From: Melioribacteraceae bacterium
Lineage (GTDB): Bacteria; Bacteroidota; Ignavibacteria; Ignavibacteriales; Melioribacteraceae
DNA: 64,000 nucleotides
Direction: 5' to 3'
Assembly (NCBI GenBank): GCA_022181065.1
Contig: BQMY01000115.1
Coordinates: forward strand, 1 to 64,000
Shown: positions 15,073 through 48,496 of the stretch, in pieces
Position numbering within the stretch: position 1 is the first letter of the stretch
How the letters are laid out: each line of letters opens with the position of its first letter
Translations under genes and position numbers: made by a program
The notes under the pieces: model-generated
Databases searched by the model: none
The model's input: the letters and a program-made list of their open reading frames with translations, nothing else
Told to the model about the DNA's origin: nothing

Positions 15073-15942
15073 ATGAATCAGGAAATAGTTATTACCGATA
15101 ATCTTATTGATTATTTTGAGAATAATCCTTTAACCTTTACAAATATAACCTCCAAATTGCTCGTTGATATAATTGAACAAAATAAAATCTGTGATACCAA
15201 AAACAGAGATATTTTTTCATCGATTGTCAAAAAGATTGATACCCTATCAAATAAAAATATTCAGCAGGCATATTTTAATTTGTTTGAGAATTGGTTAGCA
15301 TCCTCGCGAATCATAGAGTGTAACGAAAATAATCATGAAAGTATTGCTCTAAACTCTAAAGACTGTATCCTTTTAGATTGCGATTTAAAAGAAAATCAAA
15401 TCAGAAAAAAAGCTATTAAACAACCTGAACTGGAATTCCACAACGATAAAAGTTTTATCAAGCCTGAACCATCGCAAAGATTAAAAAATCTTCCTTTTGA
15501 GCTAAAACTTGAAAAAGATATACCATACGATCTCGTAAAAATATTGGAGCCTTTTTTAAGGGGGAGCGGTGAGATTATTCTTAAAGACCCATATTTATAT
15601 AATTCCAAAGCTTTATTTAACCTGAGGAACATATTAAAAAATGTGGAATCGAGGGAATTTAAAATTATCACATATTCGAAGCATTATTACTTGAATCATG
15701 GAGGTAATGAAAAAGATTATCATGAATTTGAAAAATGCATTAAGGAATTTAGAAAAGTTGGTTACAAGGTATCAATTGAAAATTACAAAGCAGGGGGGCA
15801 TAAGGAAAGGTTTATTAAAACAGAGAAAGTTGTAATAACACTACCCGGTGGTTTAGATTTTTTTGATAACGAGGGGAAGCCTAATCTCAAGTATGAAAAT
15901 GAAGAGGCTTATCTCCGCGTTGATTTTATTAAATTAATTTAA
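15073..15942 (+). CDS. Hypothetical protein with possible PLD-like (MIT_C-type) C-terminal domain
   Basis: 289 residues, starting at the base after the ATPase stop. The N-terminal 120 residues are not recognised. From about 160 the sequence EPFLRGSGEIILKDPYL suggests a first beta-helix unit, and HKERFIKTEKVVITLPGG plus LDFF (about 246-267) recalls the HxRxI...GxGLDxF region of the phospholipase D-like fold seen in MIT C-terminal domains. A full HKD motif is absent, so nuclease or lipase activity is uncertain. It may be the effector or substrate-binding partner of the ATPase. Codon use is AT-rich like the ATPase. It is the last gene before a tRNA-Ser gene. Confidence 0.55.
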   Translation: MNQEIVITDNLIDYFENNPLTFTNITSKLLVDIIEQNKICDTKNRDIFSSIVKKIDTLSNKNIQQAYFNLFENWLASSRIIECNENNHESIALNSKDCILLDCDLKENQIRKKAIKQPELEFHNDKSFIKPEPSQRLKNLPFELKLEKDIPYDLVKILEPFLRGSGEIILKDPYLYNSKALFNLRNILKNVESREFKIITYSKHYYLNHGGNEKDYHEFEKCIKEFRKVGYKVSIENYKAGGHKERFIKTEKVVITLPGGLDFFDNEGKPNLKYENEEAYLRVDFIKLI

Positions 15943-18877: not shown

Positions 18878-19384
18878 ATGCATGATCACATCTTTAACAA
18901 CTACACTGCCAAAGACAGAGGAAATCTAATCGGGTTATTACAGGATGTACAGGAAATTTACGGGTATTTACCGGAAATAGCTATGCAGGATATAGCTGAC
19001 TTCCTTGACATGCCTTTAAGTGGAATTTATGGTGTGGCTACTTTTTACAATCAATTCAGATTAACACCATTAGGTAAAAACATTATCCGGGTATGCCGAG
19101 GAACAGCTTGCCACGTTAAAGGTTCAAATGATGTTCTTACTGCTCTTGAAATTGAACTTGGTGTTAATGCCGGAGAAACAACAAGGGATAAATTGTTTAC
19201 TCTTGAGACGGTAGCTTGTATCGGCGCTTGCAGTATTGCACCGGTTATTAATATTAATGAAGAGTATTATGGCAGATTGGCTGTAAAAGAAATTCCAAAA
19301 ATAATTAACAAATACAAGAGAGAAGCCAAAGCCCTCGAAAAAAGTACTCAAGAATCAGAGAATAAAAACGCGAGTGTGAAATGA
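18878..19384 (+). CDS. hydC: [FeFe] hydrogenase subunit HydC / NuoE-like, set 1
   Basis: 168 residues. Thioredoxin-like [2Fe-2S] protein of the NuoE family. QEIYGYLPEIAMQDIADFL is the helical N-terminal region, and the cluster ligands are in CRGTAC (about 75-80) and CIGAC (about 111-115). It passes electrons between the NuoF-like flavoprotein and the hydrogenase subunit in trimeric, NAD-linked [FeFe] hydrogenases, some of which are electron-bifurcating. A basic C-terminal tail (about 145-168) is not part of the family core. The stop overlaps hydB by 4 bp. It is the first gene after the sigma-54 promoter. Confidence 0.92.
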   Translation: MHDHIFNNYTAKDRGNLIGLLQDVQEIYGYLPEIAMQDIADFLDMPLSGIYGVATFYNQFRLTPLGKNIIRVCRGTACHVKGSNDVLTALEIELGVNAGETTRDKLFTLETVACIGACSIAPVININEEYYGRLAVKEIPKIINKYKREAKALEKSTQESENKNASVK

Positions 19385-21369
19385 ATACATTTTTAGAATT
19401 ATTAGGGATGGATGGTAAAGGGCACTCACCGGAAAATCCGGTTCCTGAGTTTGTAGCCAGTTGTACAGGTGGTCCTTTAACTGAACTTAATCCTGAATTG
19501 GAAAAAAAGATTGCTGACTTAAATAAGAGTTTAAGATACGAAGTTCATGAAGAGCCTGTGATATTTGTCGGTGCTGATACCTCAGGTTTGGCGACAGGCG
19601 CGGGTAAAGTGCTTGACGCATTGCACGCGGAAATCGCAGCACAAGGTATCAATGCAAAAGTAATTAAAACAGGTGGTTATGGTTATGGTGCAATTGAACC
19701 AACGGTCGATGTGAAACTGCCAGGTAAGGAAAGAATTATTTATTCCGAAATAACACCAAAAGATATTCCGGCGTTGCTAAAGACTACAATTACTGAAAAA
19801 GCGATATACGAAAAGAAAGTTTATGCTTCACATGGTGAGGAAACACCGGGTGTTGAAAAAATATGGGATAAACCATATTTCAAAAATCAGATGCGTGTTG
19901 TCTTGAAAAACTGCGGAATAATTAACCCTGATTCTATTGATGAATATATTGCGGCAGGTGGTTTTAAGGGTCTTGATAAAGCTTTAAGACTTATGACACC
20001 TGAAGAAGTTGTTGCAGAAGTAAAAGAAGCAGGGTTAAGAGGACGCGGCGGCGGCGGTTTCCCAACAGGTATTAAATGGGAATTAGCGCTGAAGGAAAAA
20101 GCTGATCAGAAATATTTGGTTTGTAATGCCGATGAAGGTGACCCGGGCGCTTTTATGGATCGTTCAATTCTTGAAGGTGACCCATTCCAGTTGGTTGAAG
20201 GTATGATAATAGCGGCATACGCGATTGGTGCTTCATTTGGATATATATATTGTCGCGCGGAATATCCGCTTGCGATTAGAAGATTGGAAAACACCATTAA
20301 GTTGTGCAAACAGTATGGCTTGTTAGGTGAAAATATACTTGGTTCCGGTTTTAACTTTTCGTTAAAAATCAAAAAAGGAGCAGGTGCTTTTGTCTGTGGC
20401 GAAGAAACAGCACTACTTGCTTCAATTGAAGGTAAACGCGGTATGCCACGACCTCGTCCCCCTTATCCGTCAGTTTCAGGATTGTGGGGTAAACCAACCT
20501 GTATCAACAATGTTGAGACACTTGCCAATGTTGCCACAGTTATCAGTCAAGGCAGCGAATGGTTCAGCTCATTAGGAACAAAATCAAGCAAAGGTACAAA
20601 AGTATTCGCTTTATCCGGCAAGATTACTAACTCAGGTTTGGTGGAAGTTCCGATGGGTGTAACTTTGCGCGAAGTAGTTTTTGATATCGGTGGTGGAATA
20701 CCTGATGGTAAAAAATTCAAAGCGGTTCAGATTGGTGGTCCTTCCGGTGGTTGTTTACCTGATCAGGTACTTGATACTGAAGTAGATTATGAATCTCTGA
20801 AAAGTGTAGGCGCGATGATGGGCTCCGGTGGTTTTGTTGTAATGGATGAAGATACTTGTATGGTTGATGTTGCCAAGTTCTTCCTGACATTTATTCAGAA
20901 TGAGTCTTGCGGTAAATGTGTACCATGTCGTGAGGGAACAAAAAGAATGCTCGAAATTATTGAGAGAATTTCGAAAAGTTATAAAAGTACTGAAAACAAA
21001 CTTGACCAGCTTCAAAGGTTTAAAGGTATAATACACTTAAAACGTCTTGCTGAAGTAATAAAAGATACTTCACTATGCGGATTGGGTCAAAGTGCGCCAA
21101 ATCCTGTTCTTTCAGGATTACGCTACTTTAAAGAAGAATATGATGAACATATTTTTGACCGTCGTTGCTCGGCAGGAGTATGTAAAGAATTGCTAACATT
21201 CAGCATAAATACAGATGCATGTTCCGGCTGTGGTCTTTGCGCCAGAAAATGTTCAGTTGATGCTATCATTGGTGATAAAAAACAACCGCATCACATAATC
21301 GAGAGCAAATGTATTAAGTGTGGTATGTGTGTCGAAACATGTCGCTTTGATGCAATACTTGTTAGTTAA
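19381..21369 (+). CDS. hydB: [FeFe] hydrogenase flavoprotein subunit HydB / NuoF-like, set 1
   Basis: 662 residues. Domain order: degenerate thioredoxin-like domain (about 58-140), NuoF core with NADH/FMN sites (GLRGRGGGGFPTGIKW, CNADEGDPGAFMDR, GAGAFVCGEETALLASIEG), SLBB-like region, and a 4Fe-4S site in CGKCVPCREGTKRM with the later LCGLGQ. The C-terminus has two ferredoxin clusters, CSGCGLCARKC and CIKCGMCVETC. The protein oxidises NADH or reduces NAD+ and relays electrons to HydA. The N-terminal domain has lost the cysteines that normally bind [2Fe-2S]: VGADTSGLATGAG and KTGGYGYGAIEP stand where cysteines are expected. Overlaps hydC; hydA starts 29 bp downstream. Confidence 0.93.
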   Translation: MNTFLELLGMDGKGHSPENPVPEFVASCTGGPLTELNPELEKKIADLNKSLRYEVHEEPVIFVGADTSGLATGAGKVLDALHAEIAAQGINAKVIKTGGYGYGAIEPTVDVKLPGKERIIYSEITPKDIPALLKTTITEKAIYEKKVYASHGEETPGVEKIWDKPYFKNQMRVVLKNCGIINPDSIDEYIAAGGFKGLDKALRLMTPEEVVAEVKEAGLRGRGGGGFPTGIKWELALKEKADQKYLVCNADEGDPGAFMDRSILEGDPFQLVEGMIIAAYAIGASFGYIYCRAEYPLAIRRLENTIKLCKQYGLLGENILGSGFNFSLKIKKGAGAFVCGEETALLASIEGKRGMPRPRPPYPSVSGLWGKPTCINNVETLANVATVISQGSEWFSSLGTKSSKGTKVFALSGKITNSGLVEVPMGVTLREVVFDIGGGIPDGKKFKAVQIGGPSGGCLPDQVLDTEVDYESLKSVGAMMGSGGFVVMDEDTCMVDVAKFFLTFIQNESCGKCVPCREGTKRMLEIIERISKSYKSTENKLDQLQRFKGIIHLKRLAEVIKDTSLCGLGQSAPNPVLSGLRYFKEEYDEHIFDRRCSAGVCKELLTFSINTDACSGCGLCARKCSVDAIIGDKKQPHHIIESKCIKCGMCVETCRFDAILVS

Positions 21370-21398
21370 CTTTTAGAAATATGAATTTGGGAGTTAAA

Positions 21399-23135
21399 AT
21401 GGTTGAGTTGACCATAAATAATATAAAAGTAAAAGCAGAAGAGGGAATGACCATCCTTGATGCTGCCAAGTCAGTTGGTATAAATATTCCTACTCTTTGT
21501 CACATGAAAGATCTATTTCCCACAGGCGCGTGCAGGATTTGTGTTGTTGAAGTTGAAGGTATGAGAGGTTTGATTCCATCATGCGCCTATCCTGTTGCCG
21601 AAGGGATGAAAGTTGATACTAACTCGGCAAGAGTGAGAACCTCGAGAAAAACTATTGTTGAGTTACTTGTAGAAAATCACCCGCAGGATTGTTTGATATG
21701 TGTTAGAAATAAAAACTGCGAACTTCAGGATCTATCAGAAAAATATGGATTGCGTGAACACAGGTTTGTTGGAGAGAAGAAGGACCATGCGATAGATATC
21801 TCTTCACCTTCAATGGAACGTGATCCGGCTAAATGTATCCTCTGCGGCAGATGTGTGAGAACTTGTAATGAGATACAGAAAGTTGGCGCGATTGATTTCA
21901 CTAATCGCGGTTTCCAGAGTAATGTTACAACACCTTACAACAAAGGTTTGAATGTTAGTGACTGTATCTTGTGCGGGCAGTGTATTCTTGTTTGTCCTAC
22001 TGCGGCACTCCGAGAAAAAAGTCATGCAAAAGAAGTTGTAAGCGCTATCAATGACAAGAAAAAATATTGTGTAGTACAAATAGCTCCAGCTGTTCGCGCC
22101 ACTTTGGGTGAAGAATATAATCTTCCGCTTGGTGCAAATGTAACGGGACAAATTGTTACCGGTTTAAGAAGATTAGGATTTAAAAAAGTATTTGATACCA
22201 ACTTCAGTGCTGACCTTACCATTATGGAAGAAGCAACAGAATTTCTAAACAGAGTTGAGAATAATGGTGTTCTGCCTATGTTCACAAGCTGCTGCCCCGG
22301 TTGGGTAAAATACATTGAACAAGACAAACCTGAGCTTTTGGATCATGTTTCGTCTTGTAAATCTCCTCATGAGATGGAAGGCGCAGTTCTCAAGACTTAC
22401 TACGCTAAAAAAATGGGTATTGATCCGAAAGACATGTTCGTTGTTTCAATTATGCCATGTACAGTTAAAAAGTTCGAATCAAACCGTCCGGAACTTTCCG
22501 AAGAACACAATCCTGATGTTGATGCTGTATTAACTACTAGAGAACTTGTAAGGTTATTCAACATGGCAGGTATTGATTTTAATGATTTGCCGGAAGAAGA
22601 TTTTGATCATCCGTTGGGTGAATCAACCGGTGCAGCTGTTATATTTGGTACTTCAGGTGGTGTTATGGAAGCTGCTGTAAGAACTGCTTATAATATGCTT
22701 ACTAAAAAAGAACTCGAAACGCTTGAGTTGAACGCGATAAGAGGCAATGATGGCATTAAAGAAGCAGAGCTTGATATTGAAGGCACCAAAGTAAATGTAG
22801 CTGTTGTTAATGGTATTGGCAATGTTGACAAGGTACTGGATGATATTAAACAGGGTAAATCGAAATATCATTTTGTTGAAGTGATGGCTTGCCCTGGCGG
22901 CTGTATAAATGGAGGCGGTCAGCCTATCCATCAGAAACCTGAAAAAATAAAAAAACGTATTCAGGCTCTTTATGAAATAGATGAAAAGATGAAGTTTAGA
23001 AGATCTCATGAAAACGAAAGCGTTCAGAAATTGTATGAAGAGTTTCTGGGTGAACCCAACAGCCACAAATCGCACGAATTGCTACATACCAGGTATGTTA
23101 ACAGACGCGAAATATTGGGAAAAGGTAAACGTTGA
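21399..23135 (+). CDS. hydA: [FeFe] hydrogenase catalytic subunit HydA, set 1
   Basis: 578 residues from the ATG at 21399, which follows GGGAG. An in-frame ATG at 21381 lacks this spacing. Domains: plant-type [2Fe-2S] (C34, C45, C48, C62), His-ligated 4Fe-4S (HPQDCLICVRNKNC, 94-107), two 4Fe-4S ferredoxin clusters (CILCGRCVRTC, CILCGQCILVC), and the H-cluster domain. All three H-cluster signatures are canonical: TSCCPGW (296-302), MPCTVKKFE (352-360) and EVMACPGGCINGGGQP (494-509). A small-subunit-like tail ends with LLHTRY. The enzyme reversibly makes H2 in the cytoplasm using electrons from HydBC. The maturation genes hydEFG are not in the window. Confidence 0.96.
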   Translation: MVELTINNIKVKAEEGMTILDAAKSVGINIPTLCHMKDLFPTGACRICVVEVEGMRGLIPSCAYPVAEGMKVDTNSARVRTSRKTIVELLVENHPQDCLICVRNKNCELQDLSEKYGLREHRFVGEKKDHAIDISSPSMERDPAKCILCGRCVRTCNEIQKVGAIDFTNRGFQSNVTTPYNKGLNVSDCILCGQCILVCPTAALREKSHAKEVVSAINDKKKYCVVQIAPAVRATLGEEYNLPLGANVTGQIVTGLRRLGFKKVFDTNFSADLTIMEEATEFLNRVENNGVLPMFTSCCPGWVKYIEQDKPELLDHVSSCKSPHEMEGAVLKTYYAKKMGIDPKDMFVVSIMPCTVKKFESNRPELSEEHNPDVDAVLTTRELVRLFNMAGIDFNDLPEEDFDHPLGESTGAAVIFGTSGGVMEAAVRTAYNMLTKKELETLELNAIRGNDGIKEAELDIEGTKVNVAVVNGIGNVDKVLDDIKQGKSKYHFVEVMACPGGCINGGGQPIHQKPEKIKKRIQALYEIDEKMKFRRSHENESVQKLYEEFLGEPNSHKSHELLHTRYVNRREILGKGKR

Positions 23136-27556: not shown

Positions 27557-27571
27557 CCGGGAGGAGTGATA

Positions 27572-28045
27572 ATGTTAGTGGTAGAAAAAAATTCTCTTAC
27601 CGCTGAAATAGAAGCTATGGTAGAAAAATACGGTAACTCACGCTCATCGTTGCTTCCTATTTTACAAGATGTTCAGAGAAATCATAAATTCGTTTCGGAA
27701 TTCGCTCAACAGGAAGTAGCCAGATTACTGGATATTCATCCTGTTGAAGTTTACAGTGTTATTTCATTCTATTCTTTCCTTCATTCTAAACCTATGGGCA
27801 GAAATATTGTCAGACTTTGTCAAACGATTACTTGTGACATGATGGGTAAAGTAAATGTAGCGAAAGCCATTGAAAGGGAACTTGGTATTTCTTTCGGTGA
27901 AACAACAAAAGATAACAAATTTACTCTCGAATATGCCAACTGCCTCGGTATGTGTGATCAGGGTCCCGCAATGCTGGTAAATGATAAAATTTATCCGCGT
28001 CTCACACCTGAAAAAGCAGTTGAAATTCTTAATGAGATAGGGTGA
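27572..28045 (+). CDS. hydC: [FeFe] hydrogenase subunit HydC / NuoE-like, set 2
   Basis: 157 residues from the ATG at 27572, preceded by GGGAGGAG. A GTG six bases earlier lies inside that signal. It has the NuoE-family thioredoxin-like fold, with RSSLLPILQDVQRNHKF in the helical region and [2Fe-2S] ligands in CQTITC (about 84-89) and CLGMC (about 125-129). It is clearly diverged from the set 1 protein and lacks its basic tail. It should carry electrons between HydB-2 and HydA-2. It follows the receiver gene by 15 bp, so signalling and the second hydrogenase appear to share a transcript. Confidence 0.9.
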   Translation: MLVVEKNSLTAEIEAMVEKYGNSRSSLLPILQDVQRNHKFVSEFAQQEVARLLDIHPVEVYSVISFYSFLHSKPMGRNIVRLCQTITCDMMGKVNVAKAIERELGISFGETTKDNKFTLEYANCLGMCDQGPAMLVNDKIYPRLTPEKAVEILNEIG

Positions 28046-28052
28046 GGTTAAC

Positions 28053-29261
28053 ATGGATGAAAATAAAATAGCAAGAGATGGAGCAGTTATATTTTCTGAA
28101 TATACTCGCGGTGAAGTAATTAAAAAAGTAGTAGAACTTAACCGTGATGATATACTGTTCGAACTAAAGGAATCTAAACTGAAAGGTAGAGGAGGAGCCG
28201 GATTTCCTACATCTACCAAATGGATGCTTACCGCAGCTGCTAAAGCGGATAACAAGTACGTAATATGCAATGCGGATGAAGGCGAACCGGGTACATTTAA
28301 AGACAGAGTTTTGTTGCTGGAATATCCTGAGCTTGTTTTTGACGGTATGGTTATAGGCGGTTATACAGTAGGCGCAAAATACGGTATCGTTTACCTTCGT
28401 GGTGAATATGAATATATGCTTAAATCTCTTCAGGATTATCTTGAAGCTATGCGTAATGAGAATCTTCTTGGTAAAAACATCTGCGGTAAAGAAGGTTTTG
28501 ATTTCGATATAGAGATCAGACTTGGTTCCGGCGCGTATGTTTGTGGTGAAGAAACTGCTTTGATTGAATCACTCGAAGGCGCGAGAGGCGAAGCAAGAAA
28601 TCGTCCTCCATATCCTGTTAATACAGGTTTTATGGGCAGACCTACTTCTGTAAATAATGTTGAAACATTTGCCTCGGTTGTACACATTGTAACCAAAGGC
28701 GGACAGTGGTTTAAGCAGCATGGAACAGATAAATCAACAGGTTCAAAATTATTCTCGGTATCCGGAGATTGCGCAAACCCCGGAGTGTATGAATTACCAT
28801 GGGGTACTACAATTAACGAATTATTGGATAAAGTTGGTGCTGTTAATACAAAGGCAGTACAGGTTGGTGGCGCCTCCGGTGTATGTCTCTCAAAAGATCA
28901 GTTTGAAAGACAGCTAGCCTATGAAGATGCTGGTACCGGTGGTTCAATAATGATTTTTAATGAATCACGTGATATGGTTCATGTACTTAAAAACTTCATG
29001 GAATTTTTTGTTGAAGAAAGTTGCGGACAGTGTACACCTTGCCGTATTGGTAATGTAAAACTTCTTGAAGGAGTTGAAATGATCGAAAAAGGTGAATACA
29101 CCTTCAGATATATCAATCAACTCAAGGAATTGGGCGCTACTATGCAGGTTGCCTCAAAATGTGGTTTGGGTCAATCAAGCCCTAACTCATTTATTTCTAT
29201 TTTAGAAAACTTTAAGGAAGAAATTTTCAATAATGGTAACGGAGGTACTAATGGAAAATAA
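28053..29261 (+). CDS. hydB: [FeFe] hydrogenase flavoprotein subunit HydB / NuoF-like, set 2 (short form)
   Basis: 402 residues, consisting essentially of the NuoF core. KGRGGAGFPTSTKW is the NADH site, CNADEGEPGTFKDR the FMN region, and GSGAYVCGEETALIESLEG a further signature. CGQCTPCRIG plus KCGLGQ form the 4Fe-4S site. It has neither the N-terminal thioredoxin-like domain nor the two C-terminal ferredoxin clusters found in set 1, so its electron wiring is simpler. It would oxidise NADH or a similar cofactor and pass electrons to HydA-2. It starts 7 bp after hydC-2, and its end overlaps the start of hydA-2 by 11 bp. Confidence 0.93.
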   Translation: MDENKIARDGAVIFSEYTRGEVIKKVVELNRDDILFELKESKLKGRGGAGFPTSTKWMLTAAAKADNKYVICNADEGEPGTFKDRVLLLEYPELVFDGMVIGGYTVGAKYGIVYLRGEYEYMLKSLQDYLEAMRNENLLGKNICGKEGFDFDIEIRLGSGAYVCGEETALIESLEGARGEARNRPPYPVNTGFMGRPTSVNNVETFASVVHIVTKGGQWFKQHGTDKSTGSKLFSVSGDCANPGVYELPWGTTINELLDKVGAVNTKAVQVGGASGVCLSKDQFERQLAYEDAGTGGSIMIFNESRDMVHVLKNFMEFFVEESCGQCTPCRIGNVKLLEGVEMIEKGEYTFRYINQLKELGATMQVASKCGLGQSSPNSFISILENFKEEIFNNGNGGTNGK

Positions 29262-31170
29262 AGACACACAAAGGGCTCCTGTCAGCCAGAAGCCTCATTC
29301 AGTCGATAAACCTGCCGATACCACTACTATTGGCGGAACAATCTCGATTGAAATAAACAACGAAAAACATACAGTGCCTCTGGGTACTACTATATTAGAC
29401 GCTTGTAAAATGACTGGAATTCATGTTCCAACTTTATGCCATCATGATGATTTATGCATTGCGGGGGTTTGTCGTGTATGTATGGTTGAAGTTGAAGGTA
29501 TGAGAACCTTGCAGGCTTCCTGTGCTTTCCCAATCACATCTCCAATTAAAATTCATACTTCCACACCTATGGTAAGAAAAGCACGCCGTCATGTGATAGA
29601 TTTAATGCTGAGTGAGCATCACGGTGAATGTTATTCATGTGTTAGAAATAATAATTGCGAATTGCAATCACTTGCCAATGAATATGGTGTAGATAAATAT
29701 ACATTTGGTCATGTCGAAAAATCACGTTTTGAGATTGATAACTCATCATTCTCTGTAATTCGTGACATGGATAAATGCGTTCTTTGTAAACGTTGTGTGA
29801 GAACCTGTATCGATCTTCAGGAGGTTGGAGTTCTCGAATCAGTTGACAGAGGAGACAAAACTCATATCAGCACATTCATGGAAAAAGACCTTGCTGATGT
29901 TATTTGTATTAACTGCGGTCAGTGTATTAACAGATGTCCTACCGGCGCATTACATGCAAACGATCCATCCGATGATATCTGGAACGCTATAGATGATCCG
30001 AAAAAGCATGTTGTTATTCAGACAGCACCTTCACCTCGCGCCGCAATTGGTGAAGAATTTGGTCTTGAAGCAGGTCATTCAATGACTCAGGAACTGAATA
30101 CCGCGTTAAGACGAATTGGTTTTAATGCTGTTTTCGATACTAACTTCACCGCTGACCTGACAATTATTGAAGAGGGTACAGAGCTTATTATCAGATTATT
30201 CAAAGCTCTTGTTGAAAAAGATGAAACAGTTGCTCTTCCTCAGTTTACATCGTGTTCACCAGGGTGGGTAAAATATCTTGAACATTATTATCCTGAATAT
30301 GTTGATAACCTGTCATCAGCAAAATCTCCTCAGCAGATGTTTGGCGCATTGATAAAAACTTTCTATGCCGAGAAAGCTGGAATTGATCCTAAAGATATGA
30401 TTTCTGTTGCGGTCATGCCTTGTTCTGCCAAGAAGTTCGAATGTAACAGACCGGAGATGGCAGATTCCGGTTATCAGGATGTTGATTACGGTCTCACAAC
30501 AAGAGAACTTGCAAAAATGATCAAGGAAGCAGGTATAAATCTTCCTGAAATGCCAAAAACTCATTTTGATAATCCTTTTGGTGACGCATCAGGCGCGGGT
30601 CTTATATTTGGTGCGACCGGTGGTGTTATGGAGGCTGCGATTCGTACTATCGTAGAATTCGTACTTGGTAAAAAAGCCGAAGATGTTTTTGAAAAAGCGA
30701 ATGTAATTCCTGTTCGTGGGTTCGAAGGTGTTAAATATTACGAAATACCTCTTGGTGATCAATTTGGACCAGTTCCAGCATTGATTCAACATCTTGTTCC
30801 AAACTGGGATTGGTTAGCCGGCGCTACTTTGAAAGTCGCGGTGGCTCATGGTACAGCAAACGCCAAAAAAATCATGGAAGACATCAAAGCGGGCGGTAAA
30901 TTCAGTGAATGTCATTTTATCGAATTTATGGCTTGTCCAGGCGGTTGCCTTGGCGGTGGCGGACAACCAATACCAACTAACGAAGAGATTCGTAAAAAAC
31001 GCGCTCAGGCGATTTACGCTGAAGATGAATCACTCGAACTCAGAAAATCGCATGATAATCCGCATGTTGTAAAATTGTATGAAGAGTATCTGACTGAAGG
31101 CCCGTGCGGTCATCTTTCTCATAAGCTTCTACATACACATTACACTAAACGCGGCAAATATATTGCTTAG
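29251..31170 (+). CDS. hydA: [FeFe] hydrogenase catalytic subunit HydA, set 2
   Basis: 639 residues from the ATG at 29251, which follows GGAGG by 5 nt. The frame is open from an ATG at 29233. A 28-residue Pro/Thr-rich leader precedes [2Fe-2S] (C63, C69, C74, C77, C91), His-ligated 4Fe-4S (HHGECYSCVRNNNC) and two ferredoxin clusters (CVLCKRCVRTC, CINCGQCINRC). H-cluster signatures: TSCSPGW (333-339), MPCSAKKFE and EFMACPGGCLGGGGQP. The second Cys of the usual TSCCPGW is serine (S336). An insert rich in aromatic residues (GPVPALIQHLVPNWDWLAG) precedes the third signature. It is distinct from set 1, which suggests different kinetics or partners. A strong terminator follows. Confidence 0.94.
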   Translation: MENKDTQRAPVSQKPHSVDKPADTTTIGGTISIEINNEKHTVPLGTTILDACKMTGIHVPTLCHHDDLCIAGVCRVCMVEVEGMRTLQASCAFPITSPIKIHTSTPMVRKARRHVIDLMLSEHHGECYSCVRNNNCELQSLANEYGVDKYTFGHVEKSRFEIDNSSFSVIRDMDKCVLCKRCVRTCIDLQEVGVLESVDRGDKTHISTFMEKDLADVICINCGQCINRCPTGALHANDPSDDIWNAIDDPKKHVVIQTAPSPRAAIGEEFGLEAGHSMTQELNTALRRIGFNAVFDTNFTADLTIIEEGTELIIRLFKALVEKDETVALPQFTSCSPGWVKYLEHYYPEYVDNLSSAKSPQQMFGALIKTFYAEKAGIDPKDMISVAVMPCSAKKFECNRPEMADSGYQDVDYGLTTRELAKMIKEAGINLPEMPKTHFDNPFGDASGAGLIFGATGGVMEAAIRTIVEFVLGKKAEDVFEKANVIPVRGFEGVKYYEIPLGDQFGPVPALIQHLVPNWDWLAGATLKVAVAHGTANAKKIMEDIKAGGKFSECHFIEFMACPGGCLGGGGQPIPTNEEIRKKRAQAIYAEDESLELRKSHDNPHVVKLYEEYLTEGPCGHLSHKLLHTHYTKRGKYIA

Positions 31171-31174
31171 TTAG

Positions 31175-31206
31175 AAAAGCCGCTCAAAATGAGCGGCTTT
31201 TTTTTT
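31175..31206 (+). terminator. Strong terminator closing the hydrogenase locus
   Basis: AAAAGCCGCTC (31175-31185) pairs perfectly with GAGCGGCTTTT (31191-31201) around AAAAT and runs into a stretch of T. Confidence 0.95.
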
Positions 31207-31375: not shown

Positions 31376-31420
31376 AATGCCTATATTGCAAATAAAATGT
31401 ATCTAAATTAGGAGATAAAC

Positions 31421-32440
31421 ATGAAGTCTTTACTGTTTCCGAGTGTTCTCGAAAAACATAACGATGAGCTTAAAAATTTGTCATCAAATCTTATCCAGAG
31501 CTTAAAAGTTTATCATGAGGACACTGGTTACGTTGTTGGTGAACTTGCCATGGTAGAGGGTAAATCTCCTCATAAAATAGTAAATAGTTCACCTGATGAT
31601 AAAGACTATCAGGTTTTGGCAAAATCGAGTTTAGTAGTTTTGAACAAGATCATAAATCAGCCGCTTATTCTAACCGTTGGCTTTCCTTATTCTACATACC
31701 AGATTTTTCGTGAAGACGCCGCGAATTTTTTCAAAGGTAAACATGAGGTGAAACATGACATTTTTACCCTTGGTAAAAACAAAGGTCAGAACGTGGGTAT
31801 AGAAGTGGAAAGTGTTGAAGTAATTCCTGAAATTATTGGTTGCAGCCTTGCTGTAAGAAGTAAAAAGAAAGTTAAAGGTGGTTGTTTTGTCGTAAATATT
31901 GGCTATGGTACGTTTGAAGCTTGCCTTACAAATGATTATGGTATTGTGGACAGAACTGTAATTTCACGCCCGGGTATTCGTTACGCTATTGATACGGCGA
32001 TGCGTGAATTGAGTCAGAAAAATTATCTTGGTTTGAGAACTGAACATCAGTTTGATAGCAGTTTTCAGAAAGGTTCAATTATATTAAGCAGAAAAAAAAT
32101 AGATCTTGCTCCGGTAAGAAAGAACGTTTTGAGAAAGTATTTTGAAGAAATTATTTCTCCTGCAATCAGAAATACATGGCAGGATGATGATTTCAGTATT
32201 TCATCAGATCTATATATAGCTGGCGGCGGTGCCCATTATGAAGATTTAATTGATTACTTCAGGGAAGAATTTGGTGATTTTCTGAATATTGAAGTAATTG
32301 ATGATCCGCAATATGCCGTTAGTCAGGGTTATTGTTATCGTTCATACAGACTTTCTGATGATAAATCGAGGTCGGTTGGTATTGATATAGGAAATGCTCA
32401 AACGGTAATTTCGTTTTACGATGAAGAAGAGATTGGCTAG
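31421..32440 (+). CDS. ParM/StbA-like actin ATPase with permuted phosphate-1 motif
   Basis: 339 residues. Start fixed by AGGAG and an in-frame TAG just upstream. The order of actin-fold motifs is unusual. The protein opens with SLLFPSVLEKH, which in ParM/StbA proteins comes after the first strand pair, then has TGYVVGELA, LILTVGFPYSTY and the phosphate-2 region FVVNIGYGTFEACL. The adenosine motif LYIAGGGAHYEDL and DPQYAVSQGY follow. Only then, at the very C-terminus (319-339), comes the phosphate-1 motif VGIDIGNAQTVISF. This is what a circular permutation would give. Phosphate-2 has Asn where Asp is usual. The protein probably polymerises with ATP. It may segregate DNA or act as a cytoskeleton. 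No DNA-binding adaptor (ParR) is adjacent. A terminator follows. Confidence 0.82.
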   Translation: MKSLLFPSVLEKHNDELKNLSSNLIQSLKVYHEDTGYVVGELAMVEGKSPHKIVNSSPDDKDYQVLAKSSLVVLNKIINQPLILTVGFPYSTYQIFREDAANFFKGKHEVKHDIFTLGKNKGQNVGIEVESVEVIPEIIGCSLAVRSKKKVKGGCFVVNIGYGTFEACLTNDYGIVDRTVISRPGIRYAIDTAMRELSQKNYLGLRTEHQFDSSFQKGSIILSRKKIDLAPVRKNVLRKYFEEIISPAIRNTWQDDDFSISSDLYIAGGGAHYEDLIDYFREEFGDFLNIEVIDDPQYAVSQGYCYRSYRLSDDKSRSVGIDIGNAQTVISFYDEEEIG

Positions 32441-32448: not shown

Positions 32449-32471
32449 CCGGGTTTCAAACCCGGTTTTTT
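32449..32471 (+). terminator. Terminator after the actin-like gene
   Basis: CCGGGTT (32449-32455) and AACCCGG (32459-32465) form a GC-rich stem with a 3-nt loop, followed by six T. Confidence 0.92.
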
Positions 32472-32558: not shown

Positions 32559-33242
32559 GTGTCAGAACAAGAAGAAATATTGAGGAAAGAATTCGGGAAA
32601 CTTCTTTCTGACGATTACTGTTACTTGTCGCACTCTTTTAAGGTTGATGGAAACTTGTATAGCCCCACTTCTGTAATGCTCGAAGGAGTAATTGAAGGGG
32701 ACTTATTTTCGGAAGGTAACGTTTTTATAGAAGAAGGCGCAGTAGTTAACGGTAATGTCTCAGGTGATAATGTTGTAGTGTACGGTACGGTCAGGGGTAG
32801 TATTGCCGCAAGAGAGAAGTTGGGATTACATAAAAACGCGTGCGTTGAGGGTAACGTCGCATCGAAAAATTGCGTGATTTCCGGTGAAGTATCTTTAAGC
32901 GGACAGGTGAGTTTTTCAAAAGAGAACGAGGTTGACACTTCTTTCGAATACCCTGAAATTAAAGTGAAGCCTCCCAAAGTTAAAACCACCGGTGTTCAAA
33001 AAATTAAGAATAAGAACCAAAAAGCAAAAAAAGAATCCGAAGATTTGTTGCTACCGCTATATCCTGAAATGAAAGATGATAATTTAAAGTCAATCAAACA
33101 AAAATCTAAAGATTCAGAAATACCAAATGTTACGGAAGATTCTGTTAATGAGAAAAAGCAGGATTCTTCTAAACAGAAACGAACAAGCGATAAGGGAAAA
33201 AGCAGAATAGACCTGCTGGATTCAGATCATTCATTATGGTGA
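32559..33242 (+). CDS. Bactofilin
   Basis: 227 residues with a GTG start, CTCAGGA 8 nt upstream. Residues about 35-120 are the polymer-forming cytoskeletal (bactofilin) beta-helix, with repeats of the type LEGVIEGDLFSEGNVFIEEG, AVVNGNVSGDNVVVYGTVRG and ACVEGNVASKNCVISG. A long, lysine- and serine-rich tail (about 135-227) is low complexity and probably disordered. Bactofilins form nucleotide-free filaments that position wall enzymes or cell poles, and in some bacteria they influence motility. It follows the actin-like gene but after a terminator, so it has its own transcript. Its end overlaps the convergent gene by 9 bp. Confidence 0.85.
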   Translation: MSEQEEILRKEFGKLLSDDYCYLSHSFKVDGNLYSPTSVMLEGVIEGDLFSEGNVFIEEGAVVNGNVSGDNVVVYGTVRGSIAAREKLGLHKNACVEGNVASKNCVISGEVSLSGQVSFSKENEVDTSFEYPEIKVKPPKVKTTGVQKIKNKNQKAKKESEDLLLPLYPEMKDDNLKSIKQKSKDSEIPNVTEDSVNEKKQDSSKQKRTSDKGKSRIDLLDSDHSLW

Positions 33243-34502
33243 TTTTTGTACATAGATCTGGAGAACGCTTTTATAAAGATTTGATTCATCCGATTCAAAA
33301 TGAAATTTTATAGTTTGCCTGTCATAATTTGCCTGCTTGTCACTTGAATTGAATTTTTTTGTCTTATTCAGATCAATGCCAAATTTTTCAAATTCGTATT
33401 TCAAAAAGTCACCGATTGATTCATTCAGATATTCGAATTTTGTATTAAGATCAGTTTCTTCTGAAATCTCACTGGATTTTATATTCAAGATCGCGTTCTG
33501 TTCCCCGGCTAATATTAGTTGGATAAGAACTGATGAATCAGAAGTTGCAAAGTAAGAGACTACTTCAAGATCAAGTTTAACAGAGGCAAATATTTCCGAG
33601 TGTTTGCGTACCACCTCCATACCGGATTCCAGGTCAAAGATGTATTTAACTACACTCCCGAGTTTTTCTCCTCCCATTTTATTGATAATGTGAAGATAGG
33701 TTTCACCCATTTTCCCATGCTGATAAAATCTGTCAGAAATCTGTTTCATCATTTTTGATGGGAAAAAAGATTTTAGCATAACACCATCATATCCCCGGGT
33801 TCTTTTTAAATTCAATTCATTGAAAGTAGTTGCGAAAACTTTTAGTTCCTCAGTCATATCCAGTTCGCGCAATTTGTTTAGAAGGAAATTATCCTGTGTT
33901 GCATTCAGTTCCAGAGAAATGATGACAACCTCCGGCTCATGTTTAACATATAGGTCGAGGCATTCAAAAGTTGAAGAACCTTCAATTATCTCAAATTCAA
34001 ATGACAAAAGCCGGCGAAGAAAATTTCGAAAAGCCTTGTCGACGTCAATGAGCAGCAGATTCCTTTTGGGCTGTTTTTTGTCGGGTAATTCTTTTCTGGA
34101 CCTATTTTTGGATATCCTGCTTTTATAACCGGAAATAATTTCTCGCAATCGAGCGTATGTTTCGTTATAACTTAGTGGTTTCAGAATATAATCCTGTATC
34201 CCAAGATCCACAAGTTGTTTAACAGTTGCCTTGTCGGAATGAGCTGTGATCGCTATAATGGGTAAATGTTTATATTTAGCGTGATTTCTTACGGTTGACA
34301 AAAACTCAATTCCGTTCATCAAAGGCATGCTGATATCGAGAAAGACAATATCAGGACTGTCGTGTTCAAGAACTTTCAGGGCTTCAATTCCATTTCCAGC
34401 TTGTACAACGTCATAACCAAACTTGTTGATTATAAGTTTTACCATGAATGTTCTTACAATATTATCATCATCAACTATAAGAGTTTTTATTGTCTTGTCC
34501 AT
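33234..34502 (-). CDS. Double-receiver protein with CheX-like C-terminal domain
   Basis: 422 residues. The first receiver (about 6-125) is complete: LIVDDDNIV, phospho-acceptor in FLDISMPLMNG, ITAHS, and Lys in LKPLS. The second (about 148-260, NLLLIDVDKAF) has serine-leucine (IISLELN) where the phospho-acceptor should be, so it is a pseudo-receiver. The C-terminal 150 residues look like a CheX/CheC-type phosphatase domain, with FEYLNESIGDFLKYEFEKFG, where ExxN would be the catalytic pair. It could dephosphorylate a CheY-type protein under control of its own receiver. The gene lies divergent to cheW, which shares the 194-bp promoter region, and this supports a chemotaxis role. Confidence 0.75.
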   Translation of the reverse strand: MDKTIKTLIVDDDNIVRTFMVKLIINKFGYDVVQAGNGIEALKVLEHDSPDIVFLDISMPLMNGIEFLSTVRNHAKYKHLPIIAITAHSDKATVKQLVDLGIQDYILKPLSYNETYARLREIISGYKSRISKNRSRKELPDKKQPKRNLLLIDVDKAFRNFLRRLLSFEFEIIEGSSTFECLDLYVKHEPEVVIISLELNATQDNFLLNKLRELDMTEELKVFATTFNELNLKRTRGYDGVMLKSFFPSKMMKQISDRFYQHGKMGETYLHIINKMGGEKLGSVVKYIFDLESGMEVVRKHSEIFASVKLDLEVVSYFATSDSSVLIQLILAGEQNAILNIKSSEISEETDLNTKFEYLNESIGDFLKYEFEKFGIDLNKTKKFNSSDKQANYDRQTIKFHFESDESNLYKSVLQIYVQKSP

Positions 34503-43980: not shown

Positions 43981-44862
43981 ATGTCACTATTTCGTGTGAA
44001 TACGAACATGGGTGCGGTACACGCCTACAACGCACTATCAAAAGCCAACAACATGACTTATGATGCTCAGCTAAAGTTGGCAACTCAAAAACGAATTAAC
44101 TCAGTAGCCGATGATACTTCAGGTTTTGCGGTTGGAAAATCGCTTGACCAGAAAGTTCAATTAATGGAAGCTGCTCGAAACAACGTTGGTTCGGCAAAAG
44201 ATATGCTTGCTACTTCGGAAGCACAGCTTATCAATATTAAAGACCTTGTAACTCAGGTTAAAACAAAAATTGCCGACTCTTCTAACCCGGCTGCTGATAC
44301 ACAGCGCATAGCTGATGATATCAAAGCAATGGCCAATGAAATCGAAACTATTTTCAAGAACACCAAATACAATGATACAAATCTTCTTATTTCCAGTGCA
44401 AACGGCGCCGGAAGTTCATTTGTATTCCAGACCGGTGCAGATTCCTCTGATACTCTTACAGTCAACTATCAGAACGGACTTGTAGGTACATATACTGCCG
44501 GCTCAACAGGTGGTGTGAGTAAAGAAGTATCTGACGCGATAACAACAATTGGTTCATTACCAGCATCGGGTACAACAATTGCGTCAATCTCGGCAATTAA
44601 CACAACATTAACAGCTTTTGAAACAAAAGTTGATGATGCGCTTTCAAGCATTGGTAACTCGGTACAGCGACTTGATATTAAAGATGAATTTCTTACATCC
44701 GCAATTTCAAACTCAAAAGCCTCTGTATCCAGATTGTTTGACGCTGATATGGCAATGGAACAGTTAAATGCAACAAAAGGACAGATGGCATCACAGGTTG
44801 CCACTTCAATGTTCTCTCAATTGAATATGGCTCCTCAGAACGTATTACAGCTGTTCAGATAA
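43981..44862 (+). CDS. fliC: Flagellin, copy 1
   Basis: 293 residues. N-terminal D0/D1 (FRVNTNMGAVHAYNALSKAN and TQKRINSVADDTSGFAVGKS) and C-terminal D1/D0 (LFDADMAMEQLNATKGQMAS, then FSQLNMAPQNVLQLFR) are classic. The variable centre (about 140-220) is short and rich in Ser, Thr and Gly, offering many O-glycosylation sites, which fits the glycosyltransferase genes upstream. It forms the flagellar filament after export by the type III apparatus. It has a sigma-28 promoter, structured leader and a following terminator, so it is a single-gene transcript. The paralogue at 45386 is very similar. Confidence 0.97.
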   Translation: MSLFRVNTNMGAVHAYNALSKANNMTYDAQLKLATQKRINSVADDTSGFAVGKSLDQKVQLMEAARNNVGSAKDMLATSEAQLINIKDLVTQVKTKIADSSNPAADTQRIADDIKAMANEIETIFKNTKYNDTNLLISSANGAGSSFVFQTGADSSDTLTVNYQNGLVGTYTAGSTGGVSKEVSDAITTIGSLPASGTTIASISAINTTLTAFETKVDDALSSIGNSVQRLDIKDEFLTSAISNSKASVSRLFDADMAMEQLNATKGQMASQVATSMFSQLNMAPQNVLQLFR

Positions 44863-44878
44863 TAATTAAACAAAATAG

Positions 44879-44908
44879 CCCGGTCTGATAAGATAAGGAC
44901 CGGGTTTT
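44879..44908 (+). terminator. Terminator after flagellin 1
   Basis: CCCGGTC (44879-44885) and GACCGGG (44898-44904) pair over 7 bp, followed by TTTT. Confidence 0.88.
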
Positions 44909-44936
44909 AATTAAAAACTCTAAACAGGGTAAAAAA

Positions 44937-45278
44937 ATGTATAGTAGTGCAAGAACATATCAAAATAACGGTGGCGTAAATCAGTATCTCATGAAAGAAA
45001 TACTGGAAGCTTCCCCCGAACAGCTCTTGATGAAAGTGTACGATTATGCTATCGTGAACGCTCAGAAAAAAGATATGGCGAAAACTAACAGCGCTCTGCA
45101 GGAACTGATAAATGCACTTCGTTACGACGGGGGAGAAGAAGTTAAGGAATTCTCACTCGGATTACTGAAACTTTATAACTTCTGCAAAGAGCAGACCAGA
45201 AAAGGAAATTTCGACGTGGTACACGAGATTTTAACCGAACTTAGAAATTCCTGGTTACAAATTTTCAAGAAAAAATAA
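44937..45278 (+). CDS. fliS: Flagellin export chaperone FliS
   Basis: 113 residues, the usual FliS length. Typical start ARTYQNNGGVNQYLMKEILE with EQLLMKVYDYAIVNAQKK (about 29-46), then ALRYDGGEEVKEFSLGLLKL. FliS binds the C-terminus of flagellin in the cytoplasm and prevents early polymerisation. It sits between the two flagellin genes, which it presumably serves. The promoter of flagellin 2 starts just past its stop. Confidence 0.93.
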   Translation: MYSSARTYQNNGGVNQYLMKEILEASPEQLLMKVYDYAIVNAQKKDMAKTNSALQELINALRYDGGEEVKEFSLGLLKLYNFCKEQTRKGNFDVVHEILTELRNSWLQIFKKK

Positions 45279-45287
45279 AATGAAGAC

Positions 45288-45314
45288 TAAACATTACATA
45301 TTACCATACGATAA
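45288..45314 (+). promoter_or_regulatory. Sigma-28 promoter of flagellin 2
   Basis: TAAA (45288-45291), 15-nt spacer, TACGATAA (45307-45314), with the same GAC and TGT.ATTAG flanks as the flagellin 1 promoter. It begins 10 bp after the fliS stop. Confidence 0.85.
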
Positions 45315-45334
45315 TGTTATTAGGATTTTAACTC

Positions 45335-45354
45335 GCCTGATAAGGATATCAGGC
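45335..45354 (+). promoter_or_regulatory. Stem-loop in the flagellin 2 leader
   Basis: GCCTGATA (45335-45342) pairs perfectly with TATCAGGC (45347-45354) around AGGA. It lies 20 nt before the Shine-Dalgarno GGAGGT, in the same position as the flagellin 1 leader hairpins but with different sequence. Confidence 0.6.
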
Positions 45355-45385
45355 ATTATATCAATAAACCACATGGAGGTATAAA

Positions 45386-46270
45386 ATGTCACAATCATTC
45401 CGCGTAAACACGAATATGGGTGCATTAAATGCATACAATGCACTCTCGAAAGCGAACGACTCAACTTTCAACGCTCAGTTGAGACTAGCTACTCAGAAGA
45501 GAATTAACTCTGTAGCCGATGATACTTCAGGTTTTGCAGTTGGTAAAGCTCTTGATCAGAAAGTTAAACTTATGGAAGCTGCTCAGCGTAACGTTGGTTC
45601 TGCACAAGATATGCTTGCTACTTCTGAAGTTCAGCTAACTTCTGTAAAAGACCTTGTCACACAGATCAAAACCAAAATTTCAGACGCTTCTAACCCGGCA
45701 GCCGACCAGCAGAGAATTGCTGATGATATAAAAGCAATGGGATCTGAAATTGAAAGTATCTTCAAAAATACCAAATACAATGACACCCAGTTGCTTGTCT
45801 CTACATCTACAGGTAACACAGGTACATTTACATTCCAGACAGGTGCTGCTTCTTCAGATACTTTGGGTATCGACTTTGCATCAGGTCTTGTTGGTACTTT
45901 ATCACAGGGTGGAGCTTCAGGTATTGCTTCTGAAGTTAAAACCGCGCTTGCTTCAATCAGCGGTCTTCCAAGTAGCGGTAGTACAATTGCAAATATCCAG
46001 GCAATTGAAACAGCTCTTAACTCGTTCGAAACCAAAGTTGATGATTCACTTTCAAAAATTGGTAACCTTAGTCAACGACTTGATATTAAAGATGAATTCC
46101 TTACCTCGGCTATTTCAAATTCCAAGGCATCAGTATCAAGATTGTTCGACGCGGATATGGCTATGGAGCAGTTGAATGCAACCAAGGGTCAGATGTCATC
46201 ACAGGTAGCGACATCAATGTTCTCGCAGTTGAATATGGCTCCACAGAGTGTATTATCACTAATGCGATAA
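45386..46270 (+). CDS. fliC: Flagellin, copy 2
   Basis: 294 residues. It shares the D0/D1 ends of copy 1 almost exactly (RVNTNMGALNAYNALSKAND, QKRINSVADDTSGFAVGKAL and LFDADMAMEQLNATKGQMSS), while the central region and a few helix positions differ. It has its own sigma-28 promoter and leader hairpin. Two similar flagellins may form mixed filaments or be used in different segments. The Shine-Dalgarno GGAGGT lies 6 nt before the ATG. Confidence 0.97.
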   Translation: MSQSFRVNTNMGALNAYNALSKANDSTFNAQLRLATQKRINSVADDTSGFAVGKALDQKVKLMEAAQRNVGSAQDMLATSEVQLTSVKDLVTQIKTKISDASNPAADQQRIADDIKAMGSEIESIFKNTKYNDTQLLVSTSTGNTGTFTFQTGAASSDTLGIDFASGLVGTLSQGGASGIASEVKTALASISGLPSSGSTIANIQAIETALNSFETKVDDSLSKIGNLSQRLDIKDEFLTSAISNSKASVSRLFDADMAMEQLNATKGQMSSQVATSMFSQLNMAPQSVLSLMR

Positions 46271-46288
46271 TTACTGACATCAATTTGC

Positions 46289-46310
46289 GCCCCGGCTTGC
46301 CGGGGCATTT
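46289..46310 (+). terminator. Terminator after flagellin 2
   Basis: GCCCCGG (46289-46295), loop CTTG and CCGGGGC (46300-46306) form a strong stem. The T-run (ATTTTC) is short. Confidence 0.8.
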
Positions 46311-46369
46311 TCATATAAATTTTATAAAATTGTTTTATAAAAATTTTTGCATTTTAAAGGGTAGAGGTT

Positions 46370-48163
46370 ATGTCGTACGACATTCTTTCAACATCCTACA
46401 TAAATAACATGGTTAGCAATTATTCATACATGGAGTATGAAAATAAAATCGCGCCATTAAAAACCCGCCAGGATAAATATCAGCGTATATCTGACGGGTA
46501 CTCTACGCTTGACGGTAAATTGGAATCATTGAAGGATTTACTTGAGGATTTGAAAGAAACAGGCAGCAGTTCCATTTTCGCAAACAAAGCTACTTCTACT
46601 ACTGATTCAAAATTCGTTACTGCTACAGCTAGCAGCAGTGCGATAACAAGTAATTACAATTTCAGGATAAATTCACTAGCGAGGAATGACATTGCAATTT
46701 CCTCTGATCTTGATTCTGATACCGCAAACGCGATTACCGGAACTCATACTTTTCAGATAAAATCAGGTGATGGTGAAGGTGGGGAATTTGTTTCAAATAT
46801 TGAGGTGGAATTTGAAGCCGATGAAACAAATGAAACGATGTTGGAAAAAATTGCCAATGCAATTAACAATGACAAAGGATATGTTACATCATCCGCAATG
46901 GACGCAACTTCTACGTTCACAGGTTCCGGATCTTTTGTAATCGATATGAACGGGGAAGAAACCACTATAGATTATGATTATTCATCTGGTGCCACTTATG
47001 AAGAAGTAATTGATGATCTAGTTGCCCAAATAAGTGATGATGTTGATGGCGTTATTGCCGAAAAAGTAGTTGATGGCTCGAATGTAAGTCTAAAGCTTAA
47101 AGTTGATGATAACAATGATTACATAACTATTGACCAGACAACAGATACAGGTTCATTATTGGGAAGCGGTGAACTAAACCTGAATGCTATAAAGGAGAAG
47201 AGCGCGGCAGGAACTGTATCCGCTTCCGCTTTTGCTCCAACAACGGCAACTTCCCAGCTTTCCATTACCGCAAAGAACACAGGTGTAGATTATAGAATTA
47301 GTTCCTTACTCGATACCGGAAGCAGCACAGCTCTAACAGAAGTTGGATTGAATTTGGGAGCGGCGAGACCTGACTATGATCAGGCACAGGATCCTGACAC
47401 TCCCGGATTTATGTATTCTGATATAACTGACGCAAACAATGAATTAAACGCTCGCTTTTCAATGAACAACATCGACATTCAGAGAAGCAGCAATATTATA
47501 AGTGATTTGGTAAATGGTGTAACTTTCACAATGAACGCCGCTATGGATACTGAGGATAGTGATGTGAGTGTTACAGTTAATAATGATATCGAAGGTTCGA
47601 AATCAAAAATTGAAGATTTTGTTAGCAAATTCAACGATGTTTATAAATACATTAAAAATAATAGTCAGAACATGAGTGGTTATCGAGGTATCTTCCTTGG
47701 TGATTCGAATGCTTCCTCACTTCTGAGTAATTTTCGTATTACTGCCTACTCTCAAGTTGATGGAATTACAAGTGGTAACATTGATGATCTAAATGAAATT
47801 GGTCTTGAATTTGATTCTTTATCAGGATTAAAAATTGCAGATAGCAATACTCTGGAGAAAAAATTATCAGAAAATATTTCTCAGGTAGAGAAACTATTTA
47901 ACTCCTCAAATGGCATCGCTAATCAGTTATATGACGCAATAGACCCTTATCTTGGTAGTGACGGTTATATAGAAAGTTTGAAAAGCTCGTATGGCCGGAA
48001 CATTAAGAGTATTAAGGATAAAATTACCAGTACTCAAACGCGAATTGATGACAGCTCTGATACATTAAGGGGTAAATACGAAGACCTCCAGTTACAACTT
48101 ATGAATTTTTACAGCATGCAAAGTATGATGAGCAGTTTGTCATCTTCAGGATTTTATTACTAA
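46370..48163 (+). CDS. fliD: Flagellar filament cap protein FliD
   Basis: 597 residues. The N-terminal FliD_N region includes MSYDILSTSYINNMVSNYSY and YQRISDGYSTLDGKLESLKD. A variable Asp/Ser/Thr-rich centre follows, and then the conserved C-terminal part with SKFNDVYKYIKNNSQNMSG, RGIFLGDSNASSLLSNFRI and a terminal coiled coil (YEDLQLQLMNFYSMQSMMSS). FliD caps the filament tip and helps flagellin fold. The stop overlaps the next gene by one base (TAATG). Confidence 0.94.
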   Translation: MSYDILSTSYINNMVSNYSYMEYENKIAPLKTRQDKYQRISDGYSTLDGKLESLKDLLEDLKETGSSSIFANKATSTTDSKFVTATASSSAITSNYNFRINSLARNDIAISSDLDSDTANAITGTHTFQIKSGDGEGGEFVSNIEVEFEADETNETMLEKIANAINNDKGYVTSSAMDATSTFTGSGSFVIDMNGEETTIDYDYSSGATYEEVIDDLVAQISDDVDGVIAEKVVDGSNVSLKLKVDDNNDYITIDQTTDTGSLLGSGELNLNAIKEKSAAGTVSASAFAPTTATSQLSITAKNTGVDYRISSLLDTGSSTALTEVGLNLGAARPDYDQAQDPDTPGFMYSDITDANNELNARFSMNNIDIQRSSNIISDLVNGVTFTMNAAMDTEDSDVSVTVNNDIEGSKSKIEDFVSKFNDVYKYIKNNSQNMSGYRGIFLGDSNASSLLSNFRITAYSQVDGITSGNIDDLNEIGLEFDSLSGLKIADSNTLEKKLSENISQVEKLFNSSNGIANQLYDAIDPYLGSDGYIESLKSSYGRNIKSIKDKITSTQTRIDDSSDTLRGKYEDLQLQLMNFYSMQSMMSSLSSSGFYY

Positions 48164-48492
48164 TGGAAAACCTGGAAAGAGACATAAAAAGAGCAGAAAA
48201 GCAGTTGATAGAATTCAGTACTTTACTTGATACCAAAACTGTACTAAATTCCGACAGGTCGAAAAATGTTTCAGTGCTTTTTGAAGAAATTGGTAAATTA
48301 CGTTCGGAGATGATGAGTCAATATCCCCGACACGAGTTGCAAAAATTTAACAAAAATTTTGCTATATTAGTTAAACAAATTCAAATTAAGCTCGATAATG
48401 TTATTAATAATACAGAGTCTGAAAAGAAGGCAATATCCGAACGCTTAAAAAAACTGTCAGTAAAAAAGAAATTATCAATCTACAACAGGTGA
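48163..48492 (+). CDS. FliT-like small coiled-coil protein
   Basis: 109 residues, helical, charged and rich in Lys/Glu (MENLERDIKRAEKQLIEF at the start). Position directly after fliD, and size, match FliT, the export chaperone for FliD. Sequence signatures of FliT are too weak to confirm this. It is translationally coupled to fliD through TAATG. The following gene, flgM, starts 4 bp after the stop. Confidence 0.6.
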   Translation: MENLERDIKRAEKQLIEFSTLLDTKTVLNSDRSKNVSVLFEEIGKLRSEMMSQYPRHELQKFNKNFAILVKQIQIKLDNVINNTESEKKAISERLKKLSVKKKLSIYNR

Positions 48493-48496
48493 TAAA

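Follow-up and report, generated by a model that had tools for sequence, protein, structure and literature searches.

Canonical bacterial actin-like proteins of the Pfam family ALP_N (PF17989) and of PHROG 691, the SPO1-type Bacillus phage partition protein, carry the phosphate-1 motif at the N-terminus and an aspartate in the phosphate-2 motif, and relatives of this kind, with phosphate-1 at the start, are common in Bacillus phages. FcmB of Nostoc is a partition-type actin that is now chromosomal and has a role in cell shape (PMC12645912). Bactofilins build polymers that recruit client proteins, as in the pairs LmdC-BacA (PMC10945521) and PadC-BacP (PMC12448750); in the second of these it is the long disordered C-terminal tail of BacP that binds PadC. 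Pairs of a bactofilin and an M23 peptidase determine cell shape in other bacteria (PMC10945521). Here we describe an actin-like protein whose conserved motif order and adjoining bactofilin gene suggest a new kind of actin, one that works together with bactofilin.

The window, by which we mean the whole 64,000-nucleotide stretch of Melioribacteraceae contig BQMY01000115.1 that was analysed, encodes a 339-residue actin-like protein (31421-32440, + strand) that sequence, profile, rotation and family data mark as circularly permuted. Its motifs run from FPSV (residues 6-9) through phosphate-2 (VNIGYGT, 158-164), the adenosine motif (IAGGGA, 266-271) and DPQYAVSQGY (295-304) to a C-terminal VGIDIGNAQTVISF (319-332), exactly the order that the first-pass annotation had claimed. 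The new N-terminus falls at canonical strand 3, LLFPSVLE (residues 4-11; 31430-31453, +), in which P7, S8 and E11 are invariant. In the family alignment the segment VIPEI (residues 134-138; 31820-31834, +) holds an invariant E137, which we take to be the probable counterpart of the catalytic glutamate of ParM. Phosphate-2 in its full extent reads FVVNIGYGTFE (residues 156-166; 31886-31918, +), with asparagine in place of aspartate, and the adenosine motif LYIAGGGA (residues 264-271; 32210-32233, +). A linker delimited from the family alignment (residues 304-318; 32330-32374, +) then joins the canonical C-terminus to the relocated hairpin of strands 1 and 2 (residues 319-332; 32375-32416, +), which carries phosphate-1 (VGIDIGNAQT).

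The ATG of the open reading frame is preceded by a ribosome site, aggag, at 31410-31414, and the earlier statement that an in-frame TAG lies directly 5' of the start was borne out, this stop being found three codons before the ATG at 31409-31411 (+) and overlapping aggag. No phosphate-1 motif occurs in any frame within the 250 bases upstream. The idea that a missing N-terminus is supplied by another gene was rejected, as the only ALP_N-type gene in the genome is that of the permuted actin itself; the same genome also encodes a canonical MreB (G000:C90, E 6e-139) and other actin-fold genes. Terminator-like hairpins, both consensus matches only, lie in the interval behind the upstream hydrogenase gene (31173-31203, +; 14 pairs followed by a T tail) and in that between the actin and bactofilin genes (32449-32465, +). 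Because they flank the actin gene on both sides, actin and bactofilin are possibly separate transcripts in the window, and the hairpin between the two genes counts against their partnership. By open reading frame alone, two apparent sets of genes for NAD-linked [FeFe] hydrogenase subunits lie at 18878-23135 and 27566-31170, the interval between the sets being occupied by histidine kinase and receiver genes. Elsewhere in the window a long flagellar and chemotaxis cluster (43981-63141) includes two similar tandem flagellin genes (43981-44862 and 45386-46270), and a block of three genes at 12355-15942 is perhaps a defence island; its products are a possible CARF-like protein, an AAA ATPase and a third protein whose function is unknown.

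Comparison with profiles of canonical proteins shows what has moved. ALP_N matches residues 3-139 at 53.6 bits (cut-off 26.3) and begins only at profile position 18, PHROG 691 (phrog_691) matches residues 4-305 from position 26 (97.2 bits, E 2e-27), and PRTRC_D matches residues 2-305 from position 21 (27.9 bits). The same first segment is thus unmatched in three independent profiles, and this segment is the phosphate-1 hairpin that the permuted actin holds at residues 319-332. When the last 28 residues were put first, the ALP_N score rose from 53.6 to 63.4 bits with the profile now covered from 1 to 147, and the same rotation of a homologue 53% identical to the window protein raised it from 54.1 to 65.9. 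PHROG 691 responded likewise, from 97.2 to 108.0 for the window protein and from 86.2 to 98.7 for that homologue, as did PRTRC_D (27.9 to 32.7); overall, moving the tail to the front gave a higher score and completed the coverage against five canonical actin profiles.

Rotation of the family alignment as a whole gave the same picture. With hhalign, the score against five phage ParM proteins was highest when the cut fell at residues 305-318 (127.0, versus 121.1 unrotated), and that against a canonical ALP protein from another genome (G040) reached about 66.5 rotated versus 56.1 unrotated. The gain was gone when the cut was placed at residue 320, inside the phosphate-1 motif, and with shuffled tail columns none of 100 trials reached the rotated score against either of these two canonical targets. 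With MreB as target the rotated family profile scored no higher, because the local alignment stops short of the N-terminal domain. The rotation gain and the shuffled-tail control together argue that both segments are homologous to the canonical protein and stand in rotated order. Judged on its sequence, the protein is almost certainly a natural circular permutation of an ALP actin, and the permutation proposed in the first-pass annotation is well supported by homology, the rotation test and family-wide conservation. That annotation's filing under ParM/StbA holds in so far as the protein is a ParM-like actin; a more exact placement is close to Pfam ALP_N, PHROG 691 and PRTRC protein D. A match of an Alicyclobacillus phage protein to the C-terminal part (query 157-337) was set aside, the phage protein having the canonical order and the part aligned to the tail not being phosphate-1.

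The search for homologues with the same motif order, by genome scan, near-relative search and a profile search across 395 genomes of the phylum, yielded 25 full-length relatives. Together with the window protein the family numbers 26 and comes from 24 genomes, the source genome among them, all in the one phylum that was searched in depth. The order is common to all 26, and ten representative relatives are 37-58% identical to the window protein. Every member starts with [FILY]-P-S-[VIA] and ends with G-[ILM]-D-[ILM]-G-N-[AS]-x-T, so that phosphate-1, as G-x-D-x-G-N-[AS]-x-T, sits at the C-terminus and not the N-terminus in 26/26, with G320, D322, G324, N325 and T328 invariant. The linker between GY and G.DIG is near-constant in length (about 16-18 residues in all 26) and not conserved in sequence. 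Beyond the motif the chains run on for only 6 to 23 residues, and several therefore terminate directly after strand 2. ALP_N alone, run against the 395 genomes, gave 12 matches, all beginning at profile position 15-21 and hence permuted. One other genome of the same order does carry the canonical ALP actin used above as a target (L040:1489-2367), with a small open reading frame close behind it, perhaps on a plasmid or integrated element. Two genomes contain two divergent copies of the permuted actin each (family f42: L025 and L036 in G193; L026 and L037 in G237), and in G193 each copy has its own tailed bactofilin.

G268, G269 and G270 of the adenosine motif are kept in all 26 proteins, and phosphate-2 follows the pattern [SNG]-x-G-Y-G-[TS]-x-E, in which the first position aligns with the aspartate of MreB and DnaK. 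The asparagine noted there from the window sequence was confirmed, and no family member has the aspartate that ParM, MreB and Hsp70 carry at this place (0/26; Ser in 22, Asn in 2, Gly in 2), the remainder of the motif being kept. Hsc70 mutants of the D199S type hydrolyse ATP poorly, and among the structure matches was the Hsc70 D199S mutant (1QQM), whose serine occupies the same place as the phosphate-2 serine of the family. The family-wide loss of this aspartate leads us to predict ATP binding with slow or absent hydrolysis, and on these residues we lean, by a modest degree, towards impaired hydrolysis. The permuted actin consequently lacks two usual features of the actin superfamily, the motif order and the phosphate-2 aspartate.

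Two AlphaFold models, for which just two sequences were aligned, were of low confidence (mean pLDDT 41 and 47, with the tail at about 25) and too poor to locate the C-terminal strand in the fold. Foldseek and VIA-align, applied to these models, ranked ParM, BeeR, Ta0583, MamK and MreB highest (Z up to 10, aligned over about residues 148-301), which supports an actin fold for that part of the low-confidence models. That the protein has an actin fold and binds nucleotide is very probable.

Directly downstream of the actin gene in the window lies a gene for a 227-residue bactofilin (32559-33242, +; Pfam PF04519, domain at 32625-32909, 74.8 bits against a cut-off of 27.9), a partner that the first-pass annotation had passed over. 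Its C-terminal tail (32910-33239, +) ends in DSDHSLW, the tryptophan codon being 33237-33239, and is the proposed docking peptide. A response-regulator gene on the minus strand (33234-34502) is convergent with the bactofilin gene and overlaps its 3' end by 9 bases. In 17 of 22 loci, judged by six-frame open reading frames, the actin gene has a bactofilin downstream of it and on its own strand. This bactofilin is directly adjacent in 14, mostly within 250 bases and in one case at 420, the spacing in other loci being 4-20 bases or an overlap; in the other three it follows one TPR gene, and there an M23 peptidase gene lies upstream of the actin. In these last (L055, L056 and L057) the actin gene thus stands between the peptidase gene and the TPR-bactofilin pair, and ATP synthase-like genes are found just beyond. 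No bactofilin was found nearby in 5 of the 22 loci, belonging to two lineages, and in three further loci the bactofilin beside the permuted actin is untailed. The five loci without a bactofilin and the three with an untailed one mean that the partnership is not universal.

A bactofilin gene is present in 20 of 20 genomes checked, and most actin-bearing genomes have, next to the actin, an additional copy dedicated to it. What sets the dedicated partners apart is their end. All 14 finish, after the tail, with an aromatic residue at or next to the terminus (W, WS or F, mostly tryptophan), versus 0 of 21 other bactofilins (Fisher p 4e-10, a value that overstates the strength of the association since related sequences are counted as independent). 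These aromatic-tailed partners are that of the window (32910-33239) and those at L002, L053, L054, L059, L063 and L065-L072. The tails do not align between lineages, and six sampled relatives that lack the actin have an untailed bactofilin only. In the tree, tailed partners lie to either side of the midpoint root, and two changes are needed to account for the untailed lineages; one old association of actin and bactofilin with later losses is possible. No actin position was found to separate the group with tailed partners from that with untailed ones, and the comparison therefore gives no hint of a docking site. Altogether we consider a functional partnership of the permuted actin with bactofilin likely; docking of the bactofilin tail on the actin seems plausible, at somewhat less than an even chance.

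The explanation we propose begins with an ancestral ALP gene in which the strand 1-strand 2 pair with phosphate-1 would have been lost from the front and carried at the back, the linker of near-constant length joining the old C-terminal helix to the relocated pair. With the pair at the back, the new chain ends would lie at the old turn between strands 2 and 3, and the hairpin would complete the nucleotide site in domain IA within the same chain. ATP would be bound but hydrolysed slowly, if at all, and subunits or filaments in the ATP state would be long-lived; whether the protein does form filaments we judge evenly balanced. Its partner would be a bactofilin, usually a dedicated product of the neighbouring gene with a tail ending in Trp or Phe, and this tail may dock the actin onto a static, membrane-bound bactofilin polymer in an envelope or cell-shape role. 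The precedents are the binding of PadC by the BacP tail for docking (PMC12448750) and the bactofilin-M23 module for the envelope role (PMC10945521). Taken whole, a circularly permuted ALP actin working with a bactofilin scaffold in an envelope or shape role is a reading we hold with fair assurance. A more specific version, a new class of hydrolysis-impaired permuted actins that coassemble with bactofilin through the aromatic tail, possibly with the C-terminal phosphate-1 hairpin exchanged between neighbouring subunits, is speculative and on the whole unlikely.

Some alternatives accept the permutation and differ on what the protein does. The C-terminal hairpin might complete a neighbouring subunit in trans, such that swapped phosphate-1 strands hold filaments together, and its position at a free C-terminus behind a linker without conserved sequence would suit this; the near-constant length of that linker in all 26 proteins, however, fits a short local connection, and since a permutation acting in cis is the more economical account we regard exchange as improbable. 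The protein might also not polymerise at all and serve bactofilin or an envelope complex as an adaptor or switch that depends on nucleotide, as FtsA and PilM do at membranes. The missing phosphate-2 aspartate throughout the family and partner genes of scaffold or envelope type are consistent with such a role, but its closest sequence relatives are all filament-forming or partition-type actins, and we think an adaptor rather unlikely, if well worth entertaining.

A ParM-like actin for DNA segregation with merely a changed motif order is less probable still than exchange in trans. The best profile is that of a phage partition protein, PHROG 691, the PRTRC_D and ParM models match weakly, and one Myxococcus bactofilin system organises ParABS (PMC5703909), which would allow an indirect DNA role. 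Yet no relative was found on 72,556 plasmids, nor any in four scans of viral contigs, and the genes are located on long bacterial contigs, several of them chromosome-sized; the recurrent neighbour is bactofilin, and no small DNA-binding or adaptor gene recurs next to the actin in the neighbour table. That the gene is a canonical actin in decay, truncated and ending by chance in GxDxG, or the product of a sequencing error, is favoured by the missing N-terminus and by nothing beyond it. This is refuted by the family, in which 26 of 26 intact homologues, from 24 genomes, share one order and keep the motif residues invariant; the stop codon in frame and the ribosome site ahead of the ATG, with a shuffled-tail null that never reached the rotated score, also speak against it; we regard it as practically nil.

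If the permutation is as its sequence indicates, the actin fold would tolerate new chain ends inside domain IA, beside the nucleotide site, and the family would offer a natural experiment on which polymerisation features of actin require the N-terminus. With the phosphate-2 aspartate lost throughout the family, the actin is predicted to be switchless or very slow. The dedicated bactofilin with its aromatic tail suggests that the actin and bactofilin cytoskeletons are directly linked, a connection that does not appear in the bactofilin literature consulted. Our literature search, which reached few subscription journals and no preprints, found no natural permuted actin.

Set against known systems, the protein shares something with several. 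FcmB is not described as permuted in the consulted parts of its report, which name FcmC as its partner and do not mention bactofilin (PMC12645912). In the excerpts consulted for LmdC-BacA and PadC-BacP we met no actin client (PMC10945521, PMC12448750), nor, for PadC-BacP, the terminal Trp/Phe motif of the partner bactofilins (PMC12448750). With MreB the permuted actin has in common the fold, the phosphate-2 and adenosine region and a likely relation to the envelope, and it differs from it in order and in the N-terminal domain. For PRTRC system protein D (TIGR03739), residues 2-305 match positions 21-315 of the 320-position profile and, after rotation, residues 10-333 match 2-315, but the protein falls far under the curated cut-off (27.9 versus 214.8 bits) and the order in TIGR03739 is canonical. 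The closest likeness is to ALP_N and PHROG 691, which give the best profile scores, are homologous over residues 3-312 and have the same phosphate-2, adenosine and DPQ..GY blocks; in contrast to their N-terminal phosphate-1 and phosphate-2 aspartate, the permuted family carries phosphate-1 at the C-terminus and Ser, Asn or Gly in phosphate-2.
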